Shown: positions 13,421 through 35,810 of the stretch, piece after piece
How the letters are laid out: each line of letters starts with the position of its first letter
Position numbering within the stretch: the stretch's first letter is position 1
NCBI GenBank assembly: GCA_937625935.1
Contig: OW569372.1
Span: 124,001 to 188,000 of the forward strand
Length of the DNA stretch: 64,000 bases
Direction: 5' to 3'
DNA from: Tetramitus jugosus
Taxonomy: Eukaryota > Heterolobosea > Eutetramitea > Acrasida > Vahlkampfiidae
Translations under genes and position numbers: made by a program
Notes under the pieces: generated by a model
The model's database searches: none
Seen by the model: only the letters and a program-made list of their open reading frames with translations
Told to the model about the DNA's origin: nothing

Positions 13421-13752
13421 TTAAATTCGGGCAGGACCAACCCATAGACACGCGCGGAAATTGGTCAATTCATGAACAACACAGCGAATAAAAAGTCGCT
13501 TCCTTCGCCCAAGTTTTGTGCTTGTTTTATTAACGCCGCGACCCAAAAACACATAAAACAGTTGTTGCAAAGAACATTCTCTAATTCTTCGCCTAGCCTC
13601 TTGTGCGGGCGGGCACTCAACTAATAGATGAACAATAGTGTCATCTTCTTCTTGCAGCTTGGGCATCTCGTGTCTTCCACACCGCCATAAAGTCCACGCA
13701 TCACCGAGAGTGTGTAATGTGCCACTCCTAACCTGGTGATAAAATCAGAGTT
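13421..13752 (-). pseudogene. Degenerate LINE ORF2 3' relic (older subfamily)
   Basis: On the minus strand, FYHQVRSGTLHT matches FHAQVRSGTLHT of the intact LINE at 30.6-35.7 kb, and DDTIVHLLVEC with ARRRI matches its DTILHCLVRC and ARRRL. The zinc-knuckle CPSC is visible only in the +1 frame (TRCPSCKKK), so at least two frameshifts break the reading frame between these blocks. The nucleotide sequence is closer to the relic at about 30.44-30.55 kb than to the intact element, indicating an older subfamily. It begins within about 10 bp after the stop of the truncated enolase-phosphatase. Confidence 0.72.
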
Positions 13753-13756
13753 CTCT

Positions 13757-14326
13757 TCAATCGACGTAGTTTCGAACCGTACGACGTACATACTCTGTAT
13801 GATCGAACGAAGTTACAGTTTCAAAGGGATGTTGTGGTGGCAGTGCTGCAGTGCTAGGTCTAACACTAAGAACAACGTGCCATCCTGCATCCTTTGCTGC
13901 AAATGCTTCCTGAGTATTGTCTGTCAAGAACAGAATGTGCTCAGGAGCAACTTGAATATCACTTGCAATCACTTTGTAGCTCTTGGCTTCGAGCTTTGAT
14001 CCAGGATGAACCGTGTCGAAATATCCACCAAACAATGGCGTCAAATCATTCGACTCATTGTGCTTTTGATTCGAATAACCAAACAACAACTTTTGAGCAA
14101 AGACACTTCCACTTGAATACACGTAAAGCGATTTTCCCGCAATGGCCAACCGGTGAAGGACATTCACGCCAAGACACATTTGCAAGAACACCACCTCAAA
14201 AACAGAAAAGGACTGATTAAAGAAAACAGTAAGTGGTTGGAAGCAGTACTGATTGGATGGGGTGAGTGGAGCGCCTATACTTCTTGGGCCTAGTCCCTTC
14301 GATTCGTAAATTTGCTTTCTCGTCAT
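13757..14326 (-). pseudogene. N-terminally truncated enolase-phosphatase E1 (methionine salvage)
   Basis: The C-terminal half matches acireductone synthase/enolase-phosphatase (MtnC/UTR4/ENOPH1). It has LYVYSSGSVFAQKLLFGYS (motif II), LTPLFGGYFDT, a motif III Lys in GSKLEAKSYK, and LFLTDNTQEAFAAKDAGW (motif IV). HAD phosphatases need a nucleophilic Asp in an N-terminal motif (DIEGTT in this family). No such motif is visible in the first 65 residues of this frame or upstream to about 14.56 kb, and the segment before motif II is poorly conserved. It is bracketed by LINE remnants. It is probably a broken or partial copy. An undetected upstream exon is the alternative. Confidence 0.65.
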
Positions 14327-14670
14327 AGAGTTGTAACAACATAATCCCCAAAATAAATTAATGTTAATGTTAATTTTTTTTTCAGAGCAGTTAAAAGTAG
14401 AAGATTACTTGTAAGCAATGACAGTAGGTGTTTTTCAATGAAAAAGCCGTTAATCTTCTTTGGCAAGAAAGATAGGAGAGGAATGTGGTGACTGGCTCAA
14501 CCGAGTCCAAGTCATCAAGATGGGTGACGGTTGTATGGAATCTTTTCTGTGGTCAGTCCAAAACGTGGAAATAGCTCATTTTCAGCGATAGAGTGTCTAC
14601 GTTCCTCACCAAAGACAAATGGATGAATCTTGGTTGAAACCACCAATCGTTAACCCCAAAAGAAGCCAAA
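14327..14670. other. Non-coding segment with a truncated 5S-type 5' fragment
   Basis: No gene is recognised. TTAATG repeats lie near 14360. At 14569-14604 the sequence aaatagctca, then about 15 nt, then gtctacgttc copies the upstream element plus the first 10-11 bases of the 5S rRNA gene at 15177, with nearly the same spacing, before similarity ends. Confidence 0.55.
14594..14604 (+). pseudogene. 5S rRNA 5' fragment with its upstream element
   Basis: GTCTACGTTC is identical to the first 10 bases of the 5S gene at 15177. It is preceded by the same AAATAGCTCA motif (14569-14578 here, 15151-15160 at the 5S gene) at 25 versus 26 bp. The remaining 5S body is absent. This looks like a truncated duplicate. 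The conserved upstream motif may be part of a 5S promoter. Confidence 0.5.
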
Positions 14671-14685
14671 TGCTATTGCCCCAAA
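14671..14685 (+). repeat. Left target-site duplication of truncated LINE
   Basis: TGCTATTGCCCCAAA here is repeated exactly at 15128-15142. The two copies bracket the poly(T)-to-ORF2 segment. A 15-bp exact duplication is the signature of target-primed reverse transcription. Confidence 0.9.
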
Positions 14686-14752
14686 TTTTTTTTTTTTTTT
14701 TTTTTAATACAACCATTGCGGTTGCTCACTTTATTATCAATACATTTTCATC

Positions 14753-14777
14753 AGCCATCGCTCATTGAGCGATGGCT
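14753..14777 (-). other. LINE 3' UTR hairpin 1 (truncated copy)
   Basis: The stem arms AGCCATCGCTC and GAGCGATGGCT are fully complementary around an ATT loop. The equivalent hairpin in the intact LINE (30686-30702) has stem GACGCTC/GAGCGTC. The base pairs differ but pairing is kept, as is the CGCTC-NNN-GAGCG core. Confidence 0.75.
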
Positions 14778-14799
14778 CTTGGTCTTCTGATTAATTCCC

Positions 14800-14822
14800 A
14801 ATGACGCTCGCAGAGCGTCATT
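14800..14822 (-). other. LINE 3' hairpin 2 overlapping the ORF2 stop (truncated copy)
   Basis: The arms AATGACGCTC and GAGCGTCATT pair around GCA. The ORF2 stop codon (14818-14820 on the minus strand) lies in the stem, as it does in the intact element at 30718-30740, where the arms are AGTAACGCTC/GAGCGTTACT. Confidence 0.75.
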
Positions 14823-15080
14823 GTTGTTGTTTCGCTTTTGTTGTTGTGAAGAGGTGAAGGAGAGTCGTGAGACATCTCCGTTTCACCCCATTCACATAGG
14901 TTTTAGCTTTCTTACCGGCTTCTGCTGTTTTGATCCCAATTGCTACCAGTCCGTTGGTGACATCTTCGATGGCATTTGTTTCTATGCCCATCATACCTTT
15001 CAGGAACTCTCTGCTCGTCCATCGCAAAGGACGCTTTTCCATCTTGCCGCCCTTCAGTCTCACATTATCGAACCATATGT

Positions 15081-15128
15081 CGATACAGCTGTTGGCTGAC
15101 ACGTCGATACAGCTGTTGGCTGACACGT
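15081..15128 (+). repeat. Tandem duplication of a 24-bp unit at LINE 5' junction
   Basis: Units 15081-15104 and 15105-15128 are identical (cgatacagctgttggctgacacgt is the 24-bp period, shown here only by its ends CGATAC and ACACGT). They sit exactly at the truncated 5' end of the LINE copy and abut the right target-site duplication. Slippage or repair during second-strand synthesis is a likely origin. Confidence 0.85.
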
Positions 15129-15142
15129 GCTATTGCCCCAAA
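15128..15142 (+). repeat. Right target-site duplication of truncated LINE
   Basis: Exact copy of 14671-14685 (TGCTATTGCCCCAAA). Its last base is 34 bp before the first base of the 5S rRNA gene. Confidence 0.9.
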
Positions 15143-15150
15143 AATCGAGT

Positions 15151-15160
15151 AAATAGCTCA
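15151..15160 (+). promoter_or_regulatory. Candidate 5S upstream element (AAATAGCTCA)
   Basis: This decamer lies 26 bp before the 5S start. It is repeated at 14569-14578 in front of the truncated 5S fragment at nearly the same spacing, so it was duplicated together with the gene start. It may be an upstream Pol III element, but duplication alone could explain the identity. Confidence 0.4.
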
Positions 15161-15176
15161 GGTTTGCTCTATGAGT

Positions 15177-15295
15177 GTCTACGTTCATACAATGGTGGAA
15201 CCACCTATTCCCATTTCGAATAGAGAAGTTAAGCACCATCTGGCTGAGTTAGTATTGAGATAGGAGACTACTCGAGAACCCTCAGTAGTGTAGGC
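15177..15295 (+). rRNA. 5S ribosomal RNA
   Basis: The ~119-nt sequence has the universal 5S blocks: GAAGTTAAGCACC (internal control region A box), GAGTTAGTATTG and GAGACTACTCGAGAA, ending CAGTAGTGTAGGC. The 5' end GTCTAC pairs with the 3' end GTAGGC to form helix I. A TTTT run at 15296-15299 is the Pol III terminator. It is a lone dispersed gene in this window, not a tandem array. A LINE fragment is inserted just upstream, and an F-box/LRR gene begins 48 bp downstream. Confidence 0.95.
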
Positions 15296-15343
15296 TTTTG
15301 GTTGACAACCAACCATTTTTATGCCCACAAAAACAACAGCTCC

Positions 15344-28959: not shown

Positions 28960-29170
28960 TTTTCTGTTCGCTCAAAAGCACGAACAAGAATTTTTGGCGG
29001 GAAGTTGAGGTAGTTTCCAGTTCTGGAATTTTTGAGAGCACACCTAATGCAGTGAATGTGATTCAATACCCTCTAATCGAATTAGCATGCATGTTGTGAC
29101 AGAGCTTCTTTTTGTATCCCTCGTAAAATTTTTTGGGCACCTAGTTCTTAAACGGGAGAAATTGATATAT

Positions 29171-29266
29171 TCCCATATAGTCTAGCTGGTTAGGATATCC
29201 GGCTTTCACTTCCAAGCTGATAGCTAAAGTTCCCGGAAGACCCGGGTTCGAGTCCCGGTATGGGAG
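29171..29266 (+). tRNA. tRNA-Glu (anticodon TTC) with 23-nt intron
   Basis: The acceptor stem TCCCATA pairs with TATGGGA. The D-arm is GTCTAGCTGGTTAGGAT, and the T-arm CCGGGTTCGAGTCCCGG carries the B box. The anticodon stem TCCGG/CCGGA closes a loop CTTTCA + C. That puts TTC at positions 34-36 and the intron 29209-29231 between positions 37 and 38, the canonical eukaryotic site. A TTTT terminator follows at 29272-29275. It lies 104 bp before the F-box/SPRY start codon. Confidence 0.94.
29209..29231 (+). other. tRNA-Glu intron (23 nt)
   Basis: Removal of these bases restores a 7-nt anticodon loop CTTTCAC and a 5-bp anticodon stem. The position matches the 37/38 splice site recognised by eukaryotic tRNA splicing endonuclease. 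Confidence 0.85.
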
Positions 29267-29369
29267 GATCTTTTATCGTTTTTGCCAGTTCTTGGGGAAA
29301 CCCAGAATAACTTATGAAATTTGTTCTGGGGAGCTCGAGAAAGGAACATGGAAAACAAACACCAAAACA

Positions 29370-30439: not shown

Positions 30440-30545
30440 AGAACATGTAATATCAAACAGGGCATTGTACAACTTCTGCATAACCTCTTTCGTACGTAGG
30501 GTACCACTCCTGAGACCTGGTGGTAGAATCACTATCGAGTCTAAA
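30440..30545 (-). pseudogene. Short LINE ORF2 relic between F-box gene and intact LINE
   Basis: The minus strand reads RSGTLRTKEVMQKLYNALFD, aligning with RSGTLHTRVVCNYLYDDDD of the intact LINE ORF2. The bases before it (CACCAGGTCTCAGGAGTGG) align with the relic at 13.7 kb (CACCAGGTTAGGAGTGG) apart from a small indel, which shifts the frame. It shares more nucleotide identity with that relic than with the intact element. In the pre-insertion arrangement it lies roughly 80 bp upstream of tRNA-Gly. Confidence 0.6.
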
Positions 30546-30580
30546 AGGCAGAATAGTTCCACCCAACCTCACAACGACCT

Positions 30581-30595
30581 CAGGCCTCGCGGCGT
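30581..30595 (+). repeat. Left target-site duplication of full-length LINE
   Basis: CAGGCCTCGCGGCGT is repeated exactly at 35694-35708. The final T merges with the poly(T) (the element's poly(A) tail on the minus strand). Confidence 0.95.
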
Positions 30596-30685
30596 TTTTT
30601 TTTTTTTTTTTTTTTTTTAATACAACACGAGGTTGCTCTTTATTACTCTGTCCTACTTTCTTTTAGTTTCTCAGATCGTCCTTGT

Positions 30686-30702
30686 GACGCTCGGAGAGCG
30701 TC
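30686..30702 (-). other. LINE 3' UTR hairpin 1 (intact copy)
   Basis: The stem is GACGCTC/GAGCGTC with a GGA loop. The matching hairpin in the truncated copy at 14753-14777 has a different but still fully paired stem. Confidence 0.75.
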
Positions 30703-30717
30703 TCCTCTTTCCTGTTA

Positions 30718-30740
30718 GTAACGCTCGCAGAGCGTTACTA
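30718..30740 (-). other. LINE 3' hairpin 2 overlapping ORF2 stop (intact copy)
   Basis: The arms AGTAACGCTC and GAGCGTTACT enclose GCA. The stem contains the ORF2 stop (30738-30740 on the minus strand). The same arrangement occurs in the truncated copy at 14800-14822 with compensating base changes. Confidence 0.75.
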
Positions 30741-33700
30741 CTGTTTGCAGTCCTTTGATTGCTGGTAGAGTCTGTGAAGCGTTGTGATGCAGCGACTCTT
30801 CACCCAGCACACAAAACTACGGGCCTTTCGATGCGCTACTTCTTGTTTCATCCCATTTTTCATCAGCGCATCCGTCACTTGGTCGACAGCACCGTTCTCT
30901 AATCCCATCATTCCCATGAGGTACTCTCTGCTCGACTTCCTCGGCATGGGCCACATGAATCCGTTTCTGAACAGCACTTTGTCAAACCATAGGGAGATGG
31001 AGGACTCTCGATGTAATGGAAGTTTGAGCAACTTGTTGTAGACTTCCAGGACGAGTCTTCTCCTGGCATCAATTGCATACTGACACCTGACAAGGCAATG
31101 GAGGATTGTATCAGGTTCGGTGCCGCATCTCGGGCATAGATTGGGGTCGTCATCATCGTACAAATAGTTACATACCACTCTGGTGTGCAACGTACCACTA
31201 CGTACTTGAGCGTGGAACCATTCCAACCGGCGATCAACAACAAATGGATTCTTGAGAAAGTCGAACTGATTCTTATGTTCCATCGCAGCGACTTGCAACC
31301 ACCATTGCGGATTCCGACAGATGAACGCCTTACGTTCCTGGAGGAACAATTCCTTCAGATCTTCTTTTCCCCTTGCATACTTACCATTGAATCTGATGGT
31401 ATGTATGAACCCCTTTGTTTGATGCAACTCCAAATTCATGCATTCTGGCATTGCCATCACCGTGAGGGCCACCTCCTGGTAGGTTTTAGGCCCAAACCCC
31501 TTGCCAACCTCGGTTTTTAGTGACTCGAAGCTCTTGATTCTTCCCTCATGAAGTAGTTGTTGTTTCTGATACAGTCCAGCCCTACTGAGCAGTCTGAGGG
31601 ACCTAGCTGGCAAGTAATTAGATAATTTGCACCCTTCACAGCGGCTATGGGAGTCATCAGTGATGATGATTCCCTTCTCGTGCAGCCTCATTGCGCACCA
31701 TTTCATGAAAGAGTGTTTGACTTCCGTAACTCTGTGGTCCGACTGGAAGACGTTCTCCGACCGGAACGTGTAGTGTTTCTTGATGTACTCAAGAGTGTCC
31801 ATCCACAGAACGTTGGCTTCTTTATCTCTCTTCCCTCTCATCATGGATTTCACGAAAAGAGCTGTGCGAGTAGCAACTGCTTCCGAGAAGTTATCCAAAC
31901 CAATGGATCCCCACTCGGGACCGATGTATAGTAACTCCGTCGGATATCTCAACATAGCTGTTGAACCATGTTTGATAAGCCTCTTTCCAACCATATTCAC
32001 ATCATCCATCGATTTCATCGTCCATTTTGTGAATTCACATGCGTACAAAAAGATGGGGTGTACACATGCGTTCACGACACGTGCAACTTGCCTGGGACCC
32101 AGATTCAAGACTTTGAGACGTTCAATGACTCTTCTGGCTTTAACCTTTGCTTGAGCAATCTGCTGATCAGTCTTGCCTTGGAGATTGAGAAATAGTCCGA
32201 GTGCACGGAAGTGCACCTTTGGACCTTTGGCAGGCACTCTGGAGTTAGCTACCATAATGTCGTGCTCTTCAATATCGTCTCCTGGCTGTCTGACAAAGAG
32301 TTCGAGTTTGTTTGGGTGCATCTGCATCCGCAACATCTCCAATACCCCACTCATATCATTGGCAATGCGCTCTATATCTTCCTTGGATTCTGACACAATG
32401 TTGCAGTCATCAACATACGCAATGTTCCAGATCTTTTGAGAGAGCGCCTGGTATCCAATTGCTCTACGTTGTGCGAACATGAGGACTGTTTGATGTACCA
32501 ATACATATGTAGTGGGAGACAACGAGTCCCCTTGTCTCGTGCCCTTGTTGATTTTGAAGGGTCTCGAGAGTTGTCCTGCCAAAACTTGTGCCTCATTGTT
32601 CGACACCATATCAGTGACTAACTTGGCGATGTTGTCTGGGTAGCCGAAGAAATCGTAGACGGCACGTATTGCGTTATGTGGGACTGAGTCAAAAGCCTTC
32701 GAGATGTCTGTTAACAAAAGGTATAGTTGTCTCTGCCTCCTATTCGCGTCATCGACAATTCCTCTAATTATTGACAACTTTTCTCTAATATCTCTCATGC
32801 TGCGTCCACCTCCTTGTGTCTCATTAAAGACTTCGCAATTCTCTGCTGCCAACGAGACTCTCTTGTTGAGTAGTCTCGTGTAAACTTTTGACAGAGAGCT
32901 TAGCAGGCTTATCGGACGATAATTATCGAGCGTTCTGCTGTCGCCTTTTTTGTAAGCAGGGATGATGATACTTCTTTTCCACTCAACCGGGAACTTCCCG
33001 GATCTTGTGATGTTGTTAAAGAAGTGAGTGAGGGTCTCTGCTAGTTCTCTACGACAGTCGCGGTTCTCGATACGTGGGAGCTTTAACATTTCGTTCTTGA
33101 TTCCGTCTATCCCCGGTGTCTTGTTGTTTCTTAGCCATCCGAGAGCTTCATTCACTTCCTCAATTGTGATGGAAGAGAATGCTCTTTCCATCTCAATGGG
33201 CTTCTTGTTAAATTTCAACTCGGATAGATACGACATGTCCGCAATCTCTTCAGAGAAGGCCTCCTCGAAATGAGTCGCTGCACTCTCTGCAACAGCTCTA
33301 TTGTCATGGGTTATTCGTCCTGCACTCTGACACGAGTTGTACCTGACTCTTTTGGCCTTCTTTGCTGTCGATGAAGCAAAGAACAGACCCGAATTGATAT
33401 GCTCGGACGTTCTCGCTTTCCAGAGCCACTTGCGGAACTGGCGATCATGTGTCCTGCGCCTCTCAGTGTGTAAGAGTTTGTCAACCTTCATAAGTGCTGC
33501 TAACACACTGGACTTTGACTTGACCCCTTGTAAGCCATACTTGTTCAGGAGATTGTCCAACTTTGGGATGGACAATGTGCTATTCGTGATTGAATCAATC
33601 AGCACTGCCCTGTGCTGTATAAGCCGTCTGGTCCGTCTATTCTCCCTCACTCTCTTTTCCTCTTTCCTAACTTGAAAGCATTGAGCGTGTTTAATGATCG

Positions 33701-34562
33701 TGGAGGTAATGAGATCGCATTGCATATTAACATCACTAATGTCCGCGATACTGTGTTTTTTCAAATCATTTAACAGTCCTTCCGCGTATCTCGTCCACTT
33801 TGGGTCATCCTTCTTGCTTGGGAAACAATGAGTTATCAGGATGGGTCCTTGGCTCCTACTGACAGTACTCGGAACTTTCAGTTTTACCTCAATCGGTAAG
33901 TGGTCACTCCTAATACCGTTCTGAGAATAGATTCCAACACTCTGGATGTCGACTAATGTTTTCCTGTTGCACCAGACTGTGTCGAGTCTTGATGAGACAC
34001 TCTCTCGGAAGAATGTGTGAACTTTAGGCAGACCGAGTGCATCTTGGACATCAAGTAGAGCAGAAGCGTCCATTGCAGTTTCAAATAGTATGCTGTTACT
34101 ATCCAAACGGCCAGATGATCTGTCTGTTCTTTCAATTACTGTGTTATGGTCTCCCCCCATTAACACTTTGCTTTCAACGCTGATCATGTTCAATATAACG
34201 GAGAGTCTTTCGTAATGTTCCTCACTCCTCACATGTGGGCCATAATGATTGACCAGTGTGTAACTGGTTGAACCGATACTGATGCTCAGGACTTGTATTC
34301 TGTCGCTGGAGTGGGTGATTCCATAGCTGTCCACTGAAGTGACCTTGATGATTGTCGCTACATACTTACTTGGTGTGTCGCACAACAGGACACAATTGAT
34401 TCTCTCCAGCTTTCTGTTGACCTTCTCACAAAAGTGTTCATCCATTTTGCATGCTTCCTGGATCATAATCACATCAATATTCTCTGTCGTTAGAATGTTA
34501 ACGATATCATGGATCTTTCCTCTAATCCCATTGACATTGTACCACAGGATTGTCAAACTCAT
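30738..34562 (-). CDS. LINE ORF2: APE endonuclease, reverse transcriptase, CCHC knuckle
   Basis: The protein has 1274 residues. The endonuclease (about 1-235) shows WYNVNGIRGK, MIQEA with the catalytic Glu, NHYGP, GGDHN (usually GDxN), SSRLDTVW and RSDHLP, so the active site appears complete. The reverse transcriptase (about 457-780) has IIIPAYKKGDSRTLDNYRPISLL, DISKAFDSVPH, KGTRQGDSLSP and AYVDDC with the catalytic Asp pair. A C-terminal zinc knuckle CPRC-x8-H-x4-C starts near residue 1143. The enzyme would nick target DNA and copy the RNA by target-primed reverse transcription. The start codon overlaps the ORF1 stop as ATGA. Confidence 0.95.
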   Translation of the reverse strand: MSLTILWYNVNGIRGKIHDIVNILTTENIDVIMIQEACKMDEHFCEKVNRKLERINCVLLCDTPSKYVATIIKVTSVDSYGITHSSDRIQVLSISIGSTSYTLVNHYGPHVRSEEHYERLSVILNMISVESKVLMGGDHNTVIERTDRSSGRLDSNSILFETAMDASALLDVQDALGLPKVHTFFRESVSSRLDTVWCNRKTLVDIQSVGIYSQNGIRSDHLPIEVKLKVPSTVSRSQGPILITHCFPSKKDDPKWTRYAEGLLNDLKKHSIADISDVNMQCDLITSTIIKHAQCFQVRKEEKRVRENRRTRRLIQHRAVLIDSITNSTLSIPKLDNLLNKYGLQGVKSKSSVLAALMKVDKLLHTERRRTHDRQFRKWLWKARTSEHINSGLFFASSTAKKAKRVRYNSCQSAGRITHDNRAVAESAATHFEEAFSEEIADMSYLSELKFNKKPIEMERAFSSITIEEVNEALGWLRNNKTPGIDGIKNEMLKLPRIENRDCRRELAETLTHFFNNITRSGKFPVEWKRSIIIPAYKKGDSRTLDNYRPISLLSSLSKVYTRLLNKRVSLAAENCEVFNETQGGGRSMRDIREKLSIIRGIVDDANRRQRQLYLLLTDISKAFDSVPHNAIRAVYDFFGYPDNIAKLVTDMVSNNEAQVLAGQLSRPFKINKGTRQGDSLSPTTYVLVHQTVLMFAQRRAIGYQALSQKIWNIAYVDDCNIVSESKEDIERIANDMSGVLEMLRMQMHPNKLELFVRQPGDDIEEHDIMVANSRVPAKGPKVHFRALGLFLNLQGKTDQQIAQAKVKARRVIERLKVLNLGPRQVARVVNACVHPIFLYACEFTKWTMKSMDDVNMVGKRLIKHGSTAMLRYPTELLYIGPEWGSIGLDNFSEAVATRTALFVKSMMRGKRDKEANVLWMDTLEYIKKHYTFRSENVFQSDHRVTEVKHSFMKWCAMRLHEKGIIITDDSHSRCEGCKLSNYLPARSLRLLSRAGLYQKQQLLHEGRIKSFESLKTEVGKGFGPKTYQEVALTVMAMPECMNLELHQTKGFIHTIRFNGKYARGKEDLKELFLQERKAFICRNPQWWLQVAAMEHKNQFDFLKNPFVVDRRLEWFHAQVRSGTLHTRVVCNYLYDDDDPNLCPRCGTEPDTILHCLVRCQYAIDARRRLVLEVYNKLLKLPLHRESSISLWFDKVLFRNGFMWPMPRKSSREYLMGMMGLENGAVDQVTDALMKNGMKQEVAHRKARSFVCWVKSRCITTLHRLYQQSKDCKQ

Positions 34563-35677
34563 AGCTGATCGTTGTTGTCTTCATCCACCATTGTTGTTTC
34601 CATGGTTGCCATTCTAGGGTTTACCTCAACAATATCACTCATTCTACCCAATCTAGGTGGTGTCCTTCTCCTTTTCTTGATCGTGTATCTATCTAACCAG
34701 CTACCTCCTCTTTTTCCGTTGTTATTCTTAGGAGTCAAGACTTCCTTTTGTATGGTGTTTCTGACCATGCTAGTGATGAATCTTTCAGCTTCTGGGCTGA
34801 GCCCGCTCTCTGTCGTGTTACTACTGTTACTGGTTCTGTTAGGTGTTGATGGTGATGGATCATCGGTGGTATCACCACTGATATCCATTCCATTGAGCGC
34901 TTCTTGATTTGTTACCTCTTGATTTTGTTCTTCTGGGTCATTGCCCTCGATGCTCGTTACCTGGGTTGGTACATGCCTCTTTCTAAGGATTTGTACAGAC
35001 TTCTTGTTCCTTTCCATCGAAAGTTCCTTGATTTGCTTCTCTAATGCTTCAATCTTACTGCTTAGACTCTTCACCATGTCGACCAATTCATATTTGATCT
35101 TGAGCATCCTCTTTCTTGTTTTCTTGTTCGTATCTTCGGTTCTTTCTACATACTTGCTTACAGATCCATTTGGTACTTCAAGTGATTCCATCACTGCCTG
35201 TGCATATGATTTTGATTGCATGGTGACGAACGCTGTACTACCATTGATTGCCACATGCTTAACCTTATCGTTACCGATCATAGATTTGATATCGTTCTCT
35301 GTTTTGCCATTGACATTGTGGACAACAACTTTCTTGTCGTTGTCTATACCTCTCTTCACCTCGGCTCTCATATGAGGGCTACTCTCTTTGTTGAAGAGTT
35401 CAACAAAATCATACAAATTATCATCCTTTACATTGGCCCAAGCGATAAATCGTTCCTTGTCTCTTTTGATCACTTGTACTCTCATCAACCAGCCTTCATG
35501 TCTCATAGCAATCGACTTCGCAATTGTGCTTGCGGTCCTTTCTCTTTCTACACCCTTAATGACTACTTCTTTCTCGTTCATAACTCCCCGTGGCATTCTC
35601 GTCCAGACAGAGTACCCGTCCTTGGTATACTCTCTAACCTCCTGAGAGGATGGAATTGTTTGCGTTTTTTTCTGCAT
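34559..35677 (-). CDS. LINE ORF1: RRM-like/coiled-coil RNA-binding protein
   Basis: The protein has 372 residues. Residues about 115-168 resemble an RRM (KKVVVHNVNG as an RNP2-like strand, STAFVTMQS as RNP1-like). A similar, weaker unit may lie at 36-95. A coiled coil follows at about 190-225 (VKSLSSKIEALEKQIKELS), then a Thr/Ser/Pro-rich linker and a basic patch (IKKRRRTPPR) that could be a nuclear signal. ORF1 proteins of this class coat the element RNA. The start codon directly abuts a run of 16 A residues, which is the entire leader before the target-site duplication. Confidence 0.85.
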   Translation of the reverse strand: MQKKTQTIPSSQEVREYTKDGYSVWTRMPRGVMNEKEVVIKGVERERTASTIAKSIAMRHEGWLMRVQVIKRDKERFIAWANVKDDNLYDFVELFNKESSPHMRAEVKRGIDNDKKVVVHNVNGKTENDIKSMIGNDKVKHVAINGSTAFVTMQSKSYAQAVMESLEVPNGSVSKYVERTEDTNKKTRKRMLKIKYELVDMVKSLSSKIEALEKQIKELSMERNKKSVQILRKRHVPTQVTSIEGNDPEEQNQEVTNQEALNGMDISGDTTDDPSPSTPNRTSNSSNTTESGLSPEAERFITSMVRNTIQKEVLTPKNNNGKRGGSWLDRYTIKKRRRTPPRLGRMSDIVEVNPRMATMETTMVDEDNNDQL

Positions 35678-35693
35678 TTTTTTTTTTTTTTTT

Positions 35694-35708
35694 CAGGCCT
35701 CGCGGCGT
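35694..35708 (+). repeat. Right target-site duplication of full-length LINE
   Basis: Exact copy of 30581-30595 (CAGGCCTCGCGGCGT). It ends 31 bp before the first base of tRNA-Gly. Confidence 0.95.
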
Positions 35709-35739: not shown

Positions 35740-35810
35740 GCATCTGTAGTGTAGGGGTATCATGCAGCGTTGCCATCGCTGCGACCCGGGTTCGAATCCC
35801 GGCAGATGCA
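35740..35810 (+). tRNA. tRNA-Gly (anticodon GCC)
   Basis: The 71-nt cloverleaf has acceptor stem GCATCTG/CAGATGC with discriminator A. The A box is TAGTGTAGGGGT, the anticodon stem CAGCG/CGCTG closes loop TTGCCAT (anticodon GCC), and the T-arm is CCGGGTTCGAATCCCGG. There is no intron. A TTTT terminator starts at 35811. The gene sits 31 bp from the 5' end of an intact LINE. The HEAT-repeat gene ends 20 bp downstream on the other strand. Confidence 0.97.

Follow-up and report, generated by a model that had tools for sequence, protein, structure and literature searches.

A young 5'-truncated LINE upstream of a 5S rRNA gene in Tetramitus jugosus and the probable targeting of RNA polymerase III transcription complexes, most likely via TFIIIB

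In the window, i.e. the 64,000-nucleotide stretch of Tetramitus jugosus DNA analysed here, a short LINE copy lies just upstream of a 5S rRNA gene and a long one just upstream of a tRNA-Gly gene. The question raised by this locus is whether such elements are directed to both types of RNA polymerase III (Pol III) gene and, if so, which part of the transcription complex they read. The window, from a genome of 26.3 Mb in 56 contigs, is gene-dense and encodes a HYDIN-like flagellar protein. Among named matches, the ubiquitin-activating enzyme comes closest to those of Acrasis (46%) and Naegleria (45%), which fits a heterolobosean host, and a nameless JGI protein shares 97% identity with it. The features at the 5S gene are as follows:

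14671..14685, no strand: distal target site duplication (TSD), at the 3' end of the element, TGCTATTGCCCCAAA, identical to 15128-15142
14686..15127, minus strand: 5'-truncated LINE copy, apparently nearest family D, 442 bp with a 20-nt poly(A) tail (14686-14705); L024 97%, C37 98%
15080..15127, minus strand: 24-bp tandem duplication at the 5' junction, two units, by direct reading
15128..15142, no strand: gene-proximal TSD, with the putative first-strand nick at its right edge (15142/15143)
15136..15176, plus strand: upstream block from about -41 to -1, conserved among 5S genes (information content, 107 5S upstream regions); probable promoter/TFIIIB region
15177..15296, plus strand: 5S rRNA gene (RF00001, 93.5 bits), then a short T run to 15299

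The earlier note had described a truncated LINE with a perfect 15-bp TSD 34 bp before the 5S gene, and this description agrees both with our direct reading of the two repeats and of the gap between TSD and 5S start and with the Rfam match. The copy is a real, targeted insertion beside the 5S gene. Its tail appears as a 20-nt T run at the 3' end, and positions 14821-15102 match the C-terminus of ORF2 with 97% identity to the L024 element, family D being by sequence the nearest. Among the matches listed, the DNA at C37:192212-192627, which is the 3' end of its element, is 98% identical to the window copy over 416 bp, and for this reason the copy looks recent. Its first 24 bp are duplicated in tandem (15080-15103 and 15104-15127), a feature that the earlier note did not mention. 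Among the matches listed, and leaving the self-match aside, alignments of the copy start at query position 25 or beyond. A complete short element, as considered from alignments starting at query 25-26, was dropped since position 25 is the end of the copy's own 24-bp duplication; it is also contradicted by the aligned part, which is ORF2 coding sequence in other copies.

Some older traces lie farther upstream in the window. At 14558-14605, a relic 5S promoter is followed by the first 10 nt of a 5S gene, as judged from a gapped alignment to the real 5S start. The sequence just before this relic, at about 14454-14535 on the plus strand, resembles by eye a portion of the ORF1-like reading frame in family F (described below). 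The 5S gene is also preceded, at a distance of about 1.4 kb, by an old LINE fragment (13583-13765, 56% to the ORF2 of L036).

The survey of 5S loci for an excess of insertions, which the earlier note had proposed, was run using the ORF1/ORF2 coding sequences from L009-L038 as queries. The 5S genes lie dispersed in the genome: searching with a 30-base pattern, at most 3 mismatches being allowed, detected 120 of them, compared to none for the reversed pattern; 108 were placed and 107 analysed, L131 being left out as a partial 5S match. Of the 107 genes, 46 had LINE coding sequence in the 230 bp upstream, probably a lower bound because copies of the 3' UTR alone would escape detection, and a single gene had it in the 170 bp downstream, where the match was weak and covered 20 residues. 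In equal 170-bp windows, the counts were 40/107 upstream versus 1/107 downstream (Fisher, 5e-13), and the element 5' end pointed toward the gene in 45 of the 46 cases with an upstream LINE. Among tRNA genes, for which the highest-scoring 40 of 53 placed nuclear genes were taken as a non-random sample, 23/40 had a LINE within 230 bp upstream and 0/40 within 170 bp downstream, with the TRE5-like opposite transcriptional orientation in 22 of the 23. In the one exception, L175, the LINE sequence adjoins a second piece of this element type in opposite orientation (C7:271491-271674 and 271672-271772), as would be expected from 5' inversion. As controls, 2/250 tiles of the window (excluding those over the two LINEs already known) and 0/149 reversed upstream sequences contained a LINE. 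Targeting of both 5S and tRNA genes by LINEs is thus strongly supported, and at 5S genes it survives the refutation that the earlier note had set, namely insertions as common downstream as upstream.

Occupancy did not differ significantly between 5S and tRNA genes (p=0.14). The best match was to ORF1, near the element 5' end, at 7/46 5S versus 10/23 tRNA genes, a difference given as raw counts, and the 5S copies look more often truncated than the tRNA copies. By eye, no fewer than two types of upstream block, AAAACGYGGAAATAGCTC-like and GGCGCCAAAAAT-like, seem to occur in the flanks of 5S genes (L039-L135), and these types may represent promoter classes. Three SRP RNA genes were also placed in the genome.

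When LINE loci were taken as the starting point, a Pol III gene lay directly in front of 22 of the 30, a tRNA gene in 21 cases and a 5S gene in one; this single case among 22 counts against 5S as an equally good target for long copies. The tRNA genes of L029 and L017 are cut by the locus edge. Five of the 30 loci have another LINE at their 5' side: a junction tail run is present in L027 and L031 and absent in L010 and L033, and L038 adjoins L023 by its coordinates. L025 has tail-like A runs in front and is a probable stack, and at 2/30 loci, L034 and L035, neither a Pol III gene nor another LINE was found in front. Newer elements would thus insert nearest to the gene and push older ones outward. 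Neighbouring target genes occur as well: in L016, a 5S gene (934-1053) lies about 450 bp past the ORF2 end of a LINE that faces tRNA-Glu.

The tRNA-Gly insertion in the window, which the earlier note had likewise reported as a LINE with its 5' end toward the gene, was recovered in this orientation and with a TSD:

30580..30594, no strand: distal TSD of the tRNA-Gly LINE, TCAGGCCTCGCGGCG
30595..35692, minus strand: full-length LINE, family A, 5098 bp
30738..34562, minus strand: LINE ORF2, 1274 aa, endonuclease and reverse transcriptase (PF00078, 7.3e-29; PF03372, 1.5e-4, just under its cut-off)
34559..35677, minus strand: LINE ORF1, 372 aa, no Pfam family matched at E 0.001
35693..35707, no strand: gene-proximal TSD of the tRNA-Gly LINE
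35740..35810, plus strand: tRNA-Gly(GCC) gene, 32 bp from the TSD

This element opens with an A run directly before ORF1. Just past its 3' end, at 30440-30514, a further LINE has left a remnant that matches L037 at 76% over 25 residues and probably represents an older copy in a stack. A tRNA gene with an apparent intron at 29170-29267 has no LINE match in the preceding window tiles.

The elements are non-LTR retrotransposons (LINEs), with reverse transcriptase, apurinic-type endonuclease, 5' truncation and, at 31 of 46 loci, poly(A) tails and TSDs. The models RVT_1 and Exo_endo_phos matched all eight ORF2s examined at E<=1, and zf-RVT matched six of the eight at the same threshold (best 1.3e-4) with invariant C1143, C1146, H1155 and C1160; none of the ten families matching the eight ORF2s was an RNase H model. 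Two protein searches, each scoring the best 8000 word-sharing candidates, yielded reverse transcriptases that were all distant (19 and 22, respectively), with 21-27% identity, apart from one of 36% over 7% of the query; TRE was absent from the named matches of both searches, most matches being nameless.

Besides the five families, A to E, resolved by the ORF2 tree, shorter relatives were found. A family F copy before a 5S gene (L066 joined to L198, contig C13) measures 1.31 kb and has a 12-nt tail, a 15-bp TSD and a gap of 24; it carries a short A-rich leader and an ORF1-like frame interrupted near its start, and the stretch read contained no reverse transcriptase. From its sequence, family F is taken as an ORF1-only half-LINE that would use the same targeting. 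The HAL1 half-LINEs of mammals are likewise ORF1-only and tailed, although HAL1 is not known to target Pol III genes. Matches to 5' ends numbered at least 40 each for families F and G, and two further element searches gave at least 39 matches and, for the window copy, at least 51. Neighbouring F and G copies are spaced about 1.3-1.4 kb by eye, and from this spacing family G would be similar to F.

The distance between gene and insertion was assessed from TSDs. A TSD score of at least 11 was obtained at 31 of the 46 loci examined (13/26 5S, 18/20 tRNA) and in 0/230 shuffled near-gene sequences; of the 26 5S loci searched, 12 were without any TSD and one scored only 10. The 19 5S loci that were extended had been chosen for expected short elements, and the sequence of L008 probably stops short of its 3' end. 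Families were assigned by hand to the 31 TSDs and values copied by hand; the numbers are small, and the position of TSDs opening with A runs is ambiguous by up to 6 bp. With these bounds, the gaps between gene and TSD fall into two registers. In the outer register (families B, C and D) they measure 38-44 at tRNA (n=9) and 33-36 at 5S genes (n=8; p=6e-4), and in the inner register (families A, E and F) 28-32 (n=9) and 23-24 (n=4; p=0.006), respectively. All five ORF2 families occur at tRNA genes, family A was without a TSD at any of the 26 5S loci searched, and in each family found at both gene types the 5S gap is several bp below the tRNA gap. Two loci were left out of the register test, L051 (TSD score 10, gap 24) and L130 (gap 26), whose 5S upstream block looks by eye about 9 bp shorter than in other 5S genes, a difference that would correct the gap to 35. 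The TSD of L031 was reassigned from family D to A since it encloses both elements, and L041 showed a TSD with one mismatch (gap 21) in one reading and none in the scored search.

The median gaps of the two registers differ by 9 bp at tRNA genes and by 11.5 bp at 5S genes. Element starts with intact 5' ends lie at 42-44 (tRNA, n=4) and 37-39 (5S, n=4) for family F and at 53-55 (tRNA, n=4) and 50 (5S, n=1) for family G, i.e. a separation of about 11 bp between F and G. Tentatively, and with somewhat less than even confidence, we suggest that several LINE lineages in one host use the same Pol III complex as their guide, in two discrete registers that differ by roughly one turn of the helix. Their docking sites may be different TFIIIB subunits or faces; alternatively, a common tether may be combined with proteins of unequal reach. 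The earlier note had drawn attention to the similar gaps of 32 and 34 bp at the tRNA-Gly and 5S genes; the gaps are real, but their similarity is partly a coincidence, as the tRNA-Gly element belongs to the inner and the 5S copy to the outer register.

Placement at 5S and tRNA genes is thus one-sided, in one orientation and in fixed register, and the differences between the gene types indicate what is measured. In 5S genes the RNA normally begins at the start site, and tRNA precursors bear a short leader. A constant distance from start to TSD would therefore appear several bp longer when taken from the mature tRNA end, from which tRNA gaps are measured here, and this matches the observed shift; the shift may thus correspond to the length of the tRNA leader. 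Box A is close to the start in tRNA genes and at about +50 in 5S genes. A ruler based on box A or B would thus produce a difference of tens of bp between the gene types and a change with introns; instead, two tRNA genes with introns predicted by ARAGORN stay in the register of their class (L016, 40; L021, 31). A ruler anchored near the transcription start, on the side of TFIIIB or the polymerase, fits these findings; one anchored at box A or B does not. Sequence conservation upstream of 107 5S genes spans about -41 to -1 and then drops to background, and the outer register nicks near the border of this block. PMC5391098 cites a TFIIIB footprint from -40 to +5 on the yeast 5S gene. Taken together, register and 5S conservation favour TFIIIB or a component attached to it.

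During target-primed reverse transcription, the first nick is the one to which the tail becomes joined, and here it lies at the gene-proximal edge of the TSD. The second nick was 11-17 bp farther out in 29 of the 31 TSDs. No common motif is visible by eye in the 31 nick contexts, which differ between 5S and tRNA genes, and for want of such a motif position rather than sequence probably directs the endonuclease. We regard the window copy as likely to be a recent insertion, truncated at its 5' end, of a LINE family directed to assembled Pol III transcription complexes, most likely via TFIIIB. In the mechanism that we propose, an element protein, by analogy ORF1, would most likely bind TFIIIB seated upstream of the start, and the ORF2 endonuclease would nick the DNA just outside TFIIIB. 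Reverse transcription would then proceed from the gene-proximal nick and the second nick would be made about 15 bp farther out, leaving the element 5' end toward the gene, the tail away from it and a TSD of about 15 bp. The idea of a tether shared by the two gene types, for which the earlier note had suggested TFIIIB, holds in so far as both types are targeted just upstream of their starts; the choice of TFIIIB, and of ORF1 as its partner by analogy to TRE5-A, is a matter of probability, since recruitment by Pol III or TFIIIC would lead to similar positions.

It is unlikely, in our view, that another component positioned relative to the start, such as Pol III itself or an upstream arm of TFIIIC, acts as the tether instead of TFIIIB. 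The observed positions would suit any factor anchored at the start, yeast Ty1 uses a Pol III subunit, and no LINE was found on either side of the two U6 genes, at which TFIIIB acts as well, two genes being too few to judge. Against it, the indifference of the register to the position of box A and to tRNA introns speaks against TFIIIC as the ruler, and ORF1 of TRE5-A binds TFIIIB according to PMC5911963. Recognition by the endonuclease of a DNA sequence common to the upstream regions of 5S and tRNA genes would be suggested by a AAAACGCGGAAAT-like motif upstream of 5S genes, just beside which the outer register nicks. We consider this very unlikely since the nick contexts, by eye without a common motif, differ between the gene types at a nearly constant distance, and since the inner families nick at another place, inside the 5S block. 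Random insertion followed by selection sparing only copies in harmless places is highly improbable: some selection must operate in a gene-dense window, but it could hardly yield 40/107 versus 1/107, a single orientation at 45 of 46 genes and registers that span just a few bp. Equally improbable is a dispersal of 5S genes along with LINEs, which would explain the association by descent; the approximately 120 dispersed 5S genes and the relic promoter in the window would suit it, but the TSDs found enclose the element and exclude the 5S gene, 61/107 5S genes are without detected LINE coding sequence upstream, and the five ORF2 families are present at tRNA genes as well.

The preferred reading, recruitment by the assembled Pol III complex most likely via TFIIIB, has a precedent in TRE5-A of Dictyostelium discoideum, for which the TFIIIB tether is already published. 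According to PMC5911963 and PMC5391098, TRE5-A is a non-LTR element with two ORFs, endonuclease, reverse transcriptase and a C-terminal zinc finger; it inserts upstream and in opposite orientation, about 47 bp (range 40-54) from tRNA and 35-42 bp from 5S genes, and its ORF1 interacts with TFIIIB proteins. A tandem with an older copy is reported in PMC5391098. The elements described here resemble it in the opposite-orientation upstream insertion (22/23 at tRNA genes), the shorter distance at 5S genes, the stacked copies and an ORF2 with C-terminal zinc finger and without RNase H. Compared to its range of 40-54 at tRNA genes, element starts here lie at 43-61 (18 loci), with 10/18 within that range and 8/18 at 55-61; the inner-register starts are inside and the outer ones mostly beyond. 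At 5S genes, inner starts lie at 36-39, similar to TRE5-A, and outer ones, including the window copy, at 48-51. The elements differ from TRE5 in having two registers, the outer one farther from the gene by about one helical turn, and in lacking the modular 5' UTR, in place of which an A run before ORF1 (window LINE) or a short A-rich leader (family F) is found; moreover, the host of TRE5 is an amoebozoan and the host here a heterolobosean.

Other systems are less similar. NLTR-B of Polysphondylium pallidum and NLTR-A of D. purpureum insert upstream of tRNA genes and are reported as only distant kin of the TREs (PMC5006619 and PMC5911963); they carry an RNase H, for which no model matched the eight ORF2s here. 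According to PMC5006619, tRNA targeting arose convergently in dictyostelid elements. The yeast elements Ty3 and Ty1 likewise integrate upstream of Pol III genes via Pol III factors (PMC5911963), but are LTR elements with an integrase and do not use target-primed reverse transcription. The zebrafish elements Mutsu (5S) and Dewa (tRNA-Leu spacer) are target-specific at 5S or tRNA loci, but in PMC3706591 they are grouped with elements that recognise their target DNA directly. Among titles and opening lines of abstracts in the open-licence literature on Naegleria, Acrasis kona, Heterolobosea and protist non-LTR elements, we found no heterolobosean case.

The targeting described here is thus of a known kind in a distant lineage; the two registers, the frequent use of 5S genes, the stacking and the ORF1-only elements are less expected. 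It extends the targeting of Pol III complexes by LINEs, known from dictyostelids, to a heterolobosean, and this targeting is either of independent origin or very old. Since assembly of the complex follows different routes at 5S and at tRNA genes, which are hit at matching positions, the two gene types provide a natural test of the ruler, and the answer of the survey points to the start-site side of the Pol III complex. With its recent insertions and their perfect TSDs, its two registers and its dispersed 5S genes, this organism makes the question of the tether directly testable. If the two-register reading is true, the insertions would be a footprint of the Pol III complex in this lineage, written by the genome itself.
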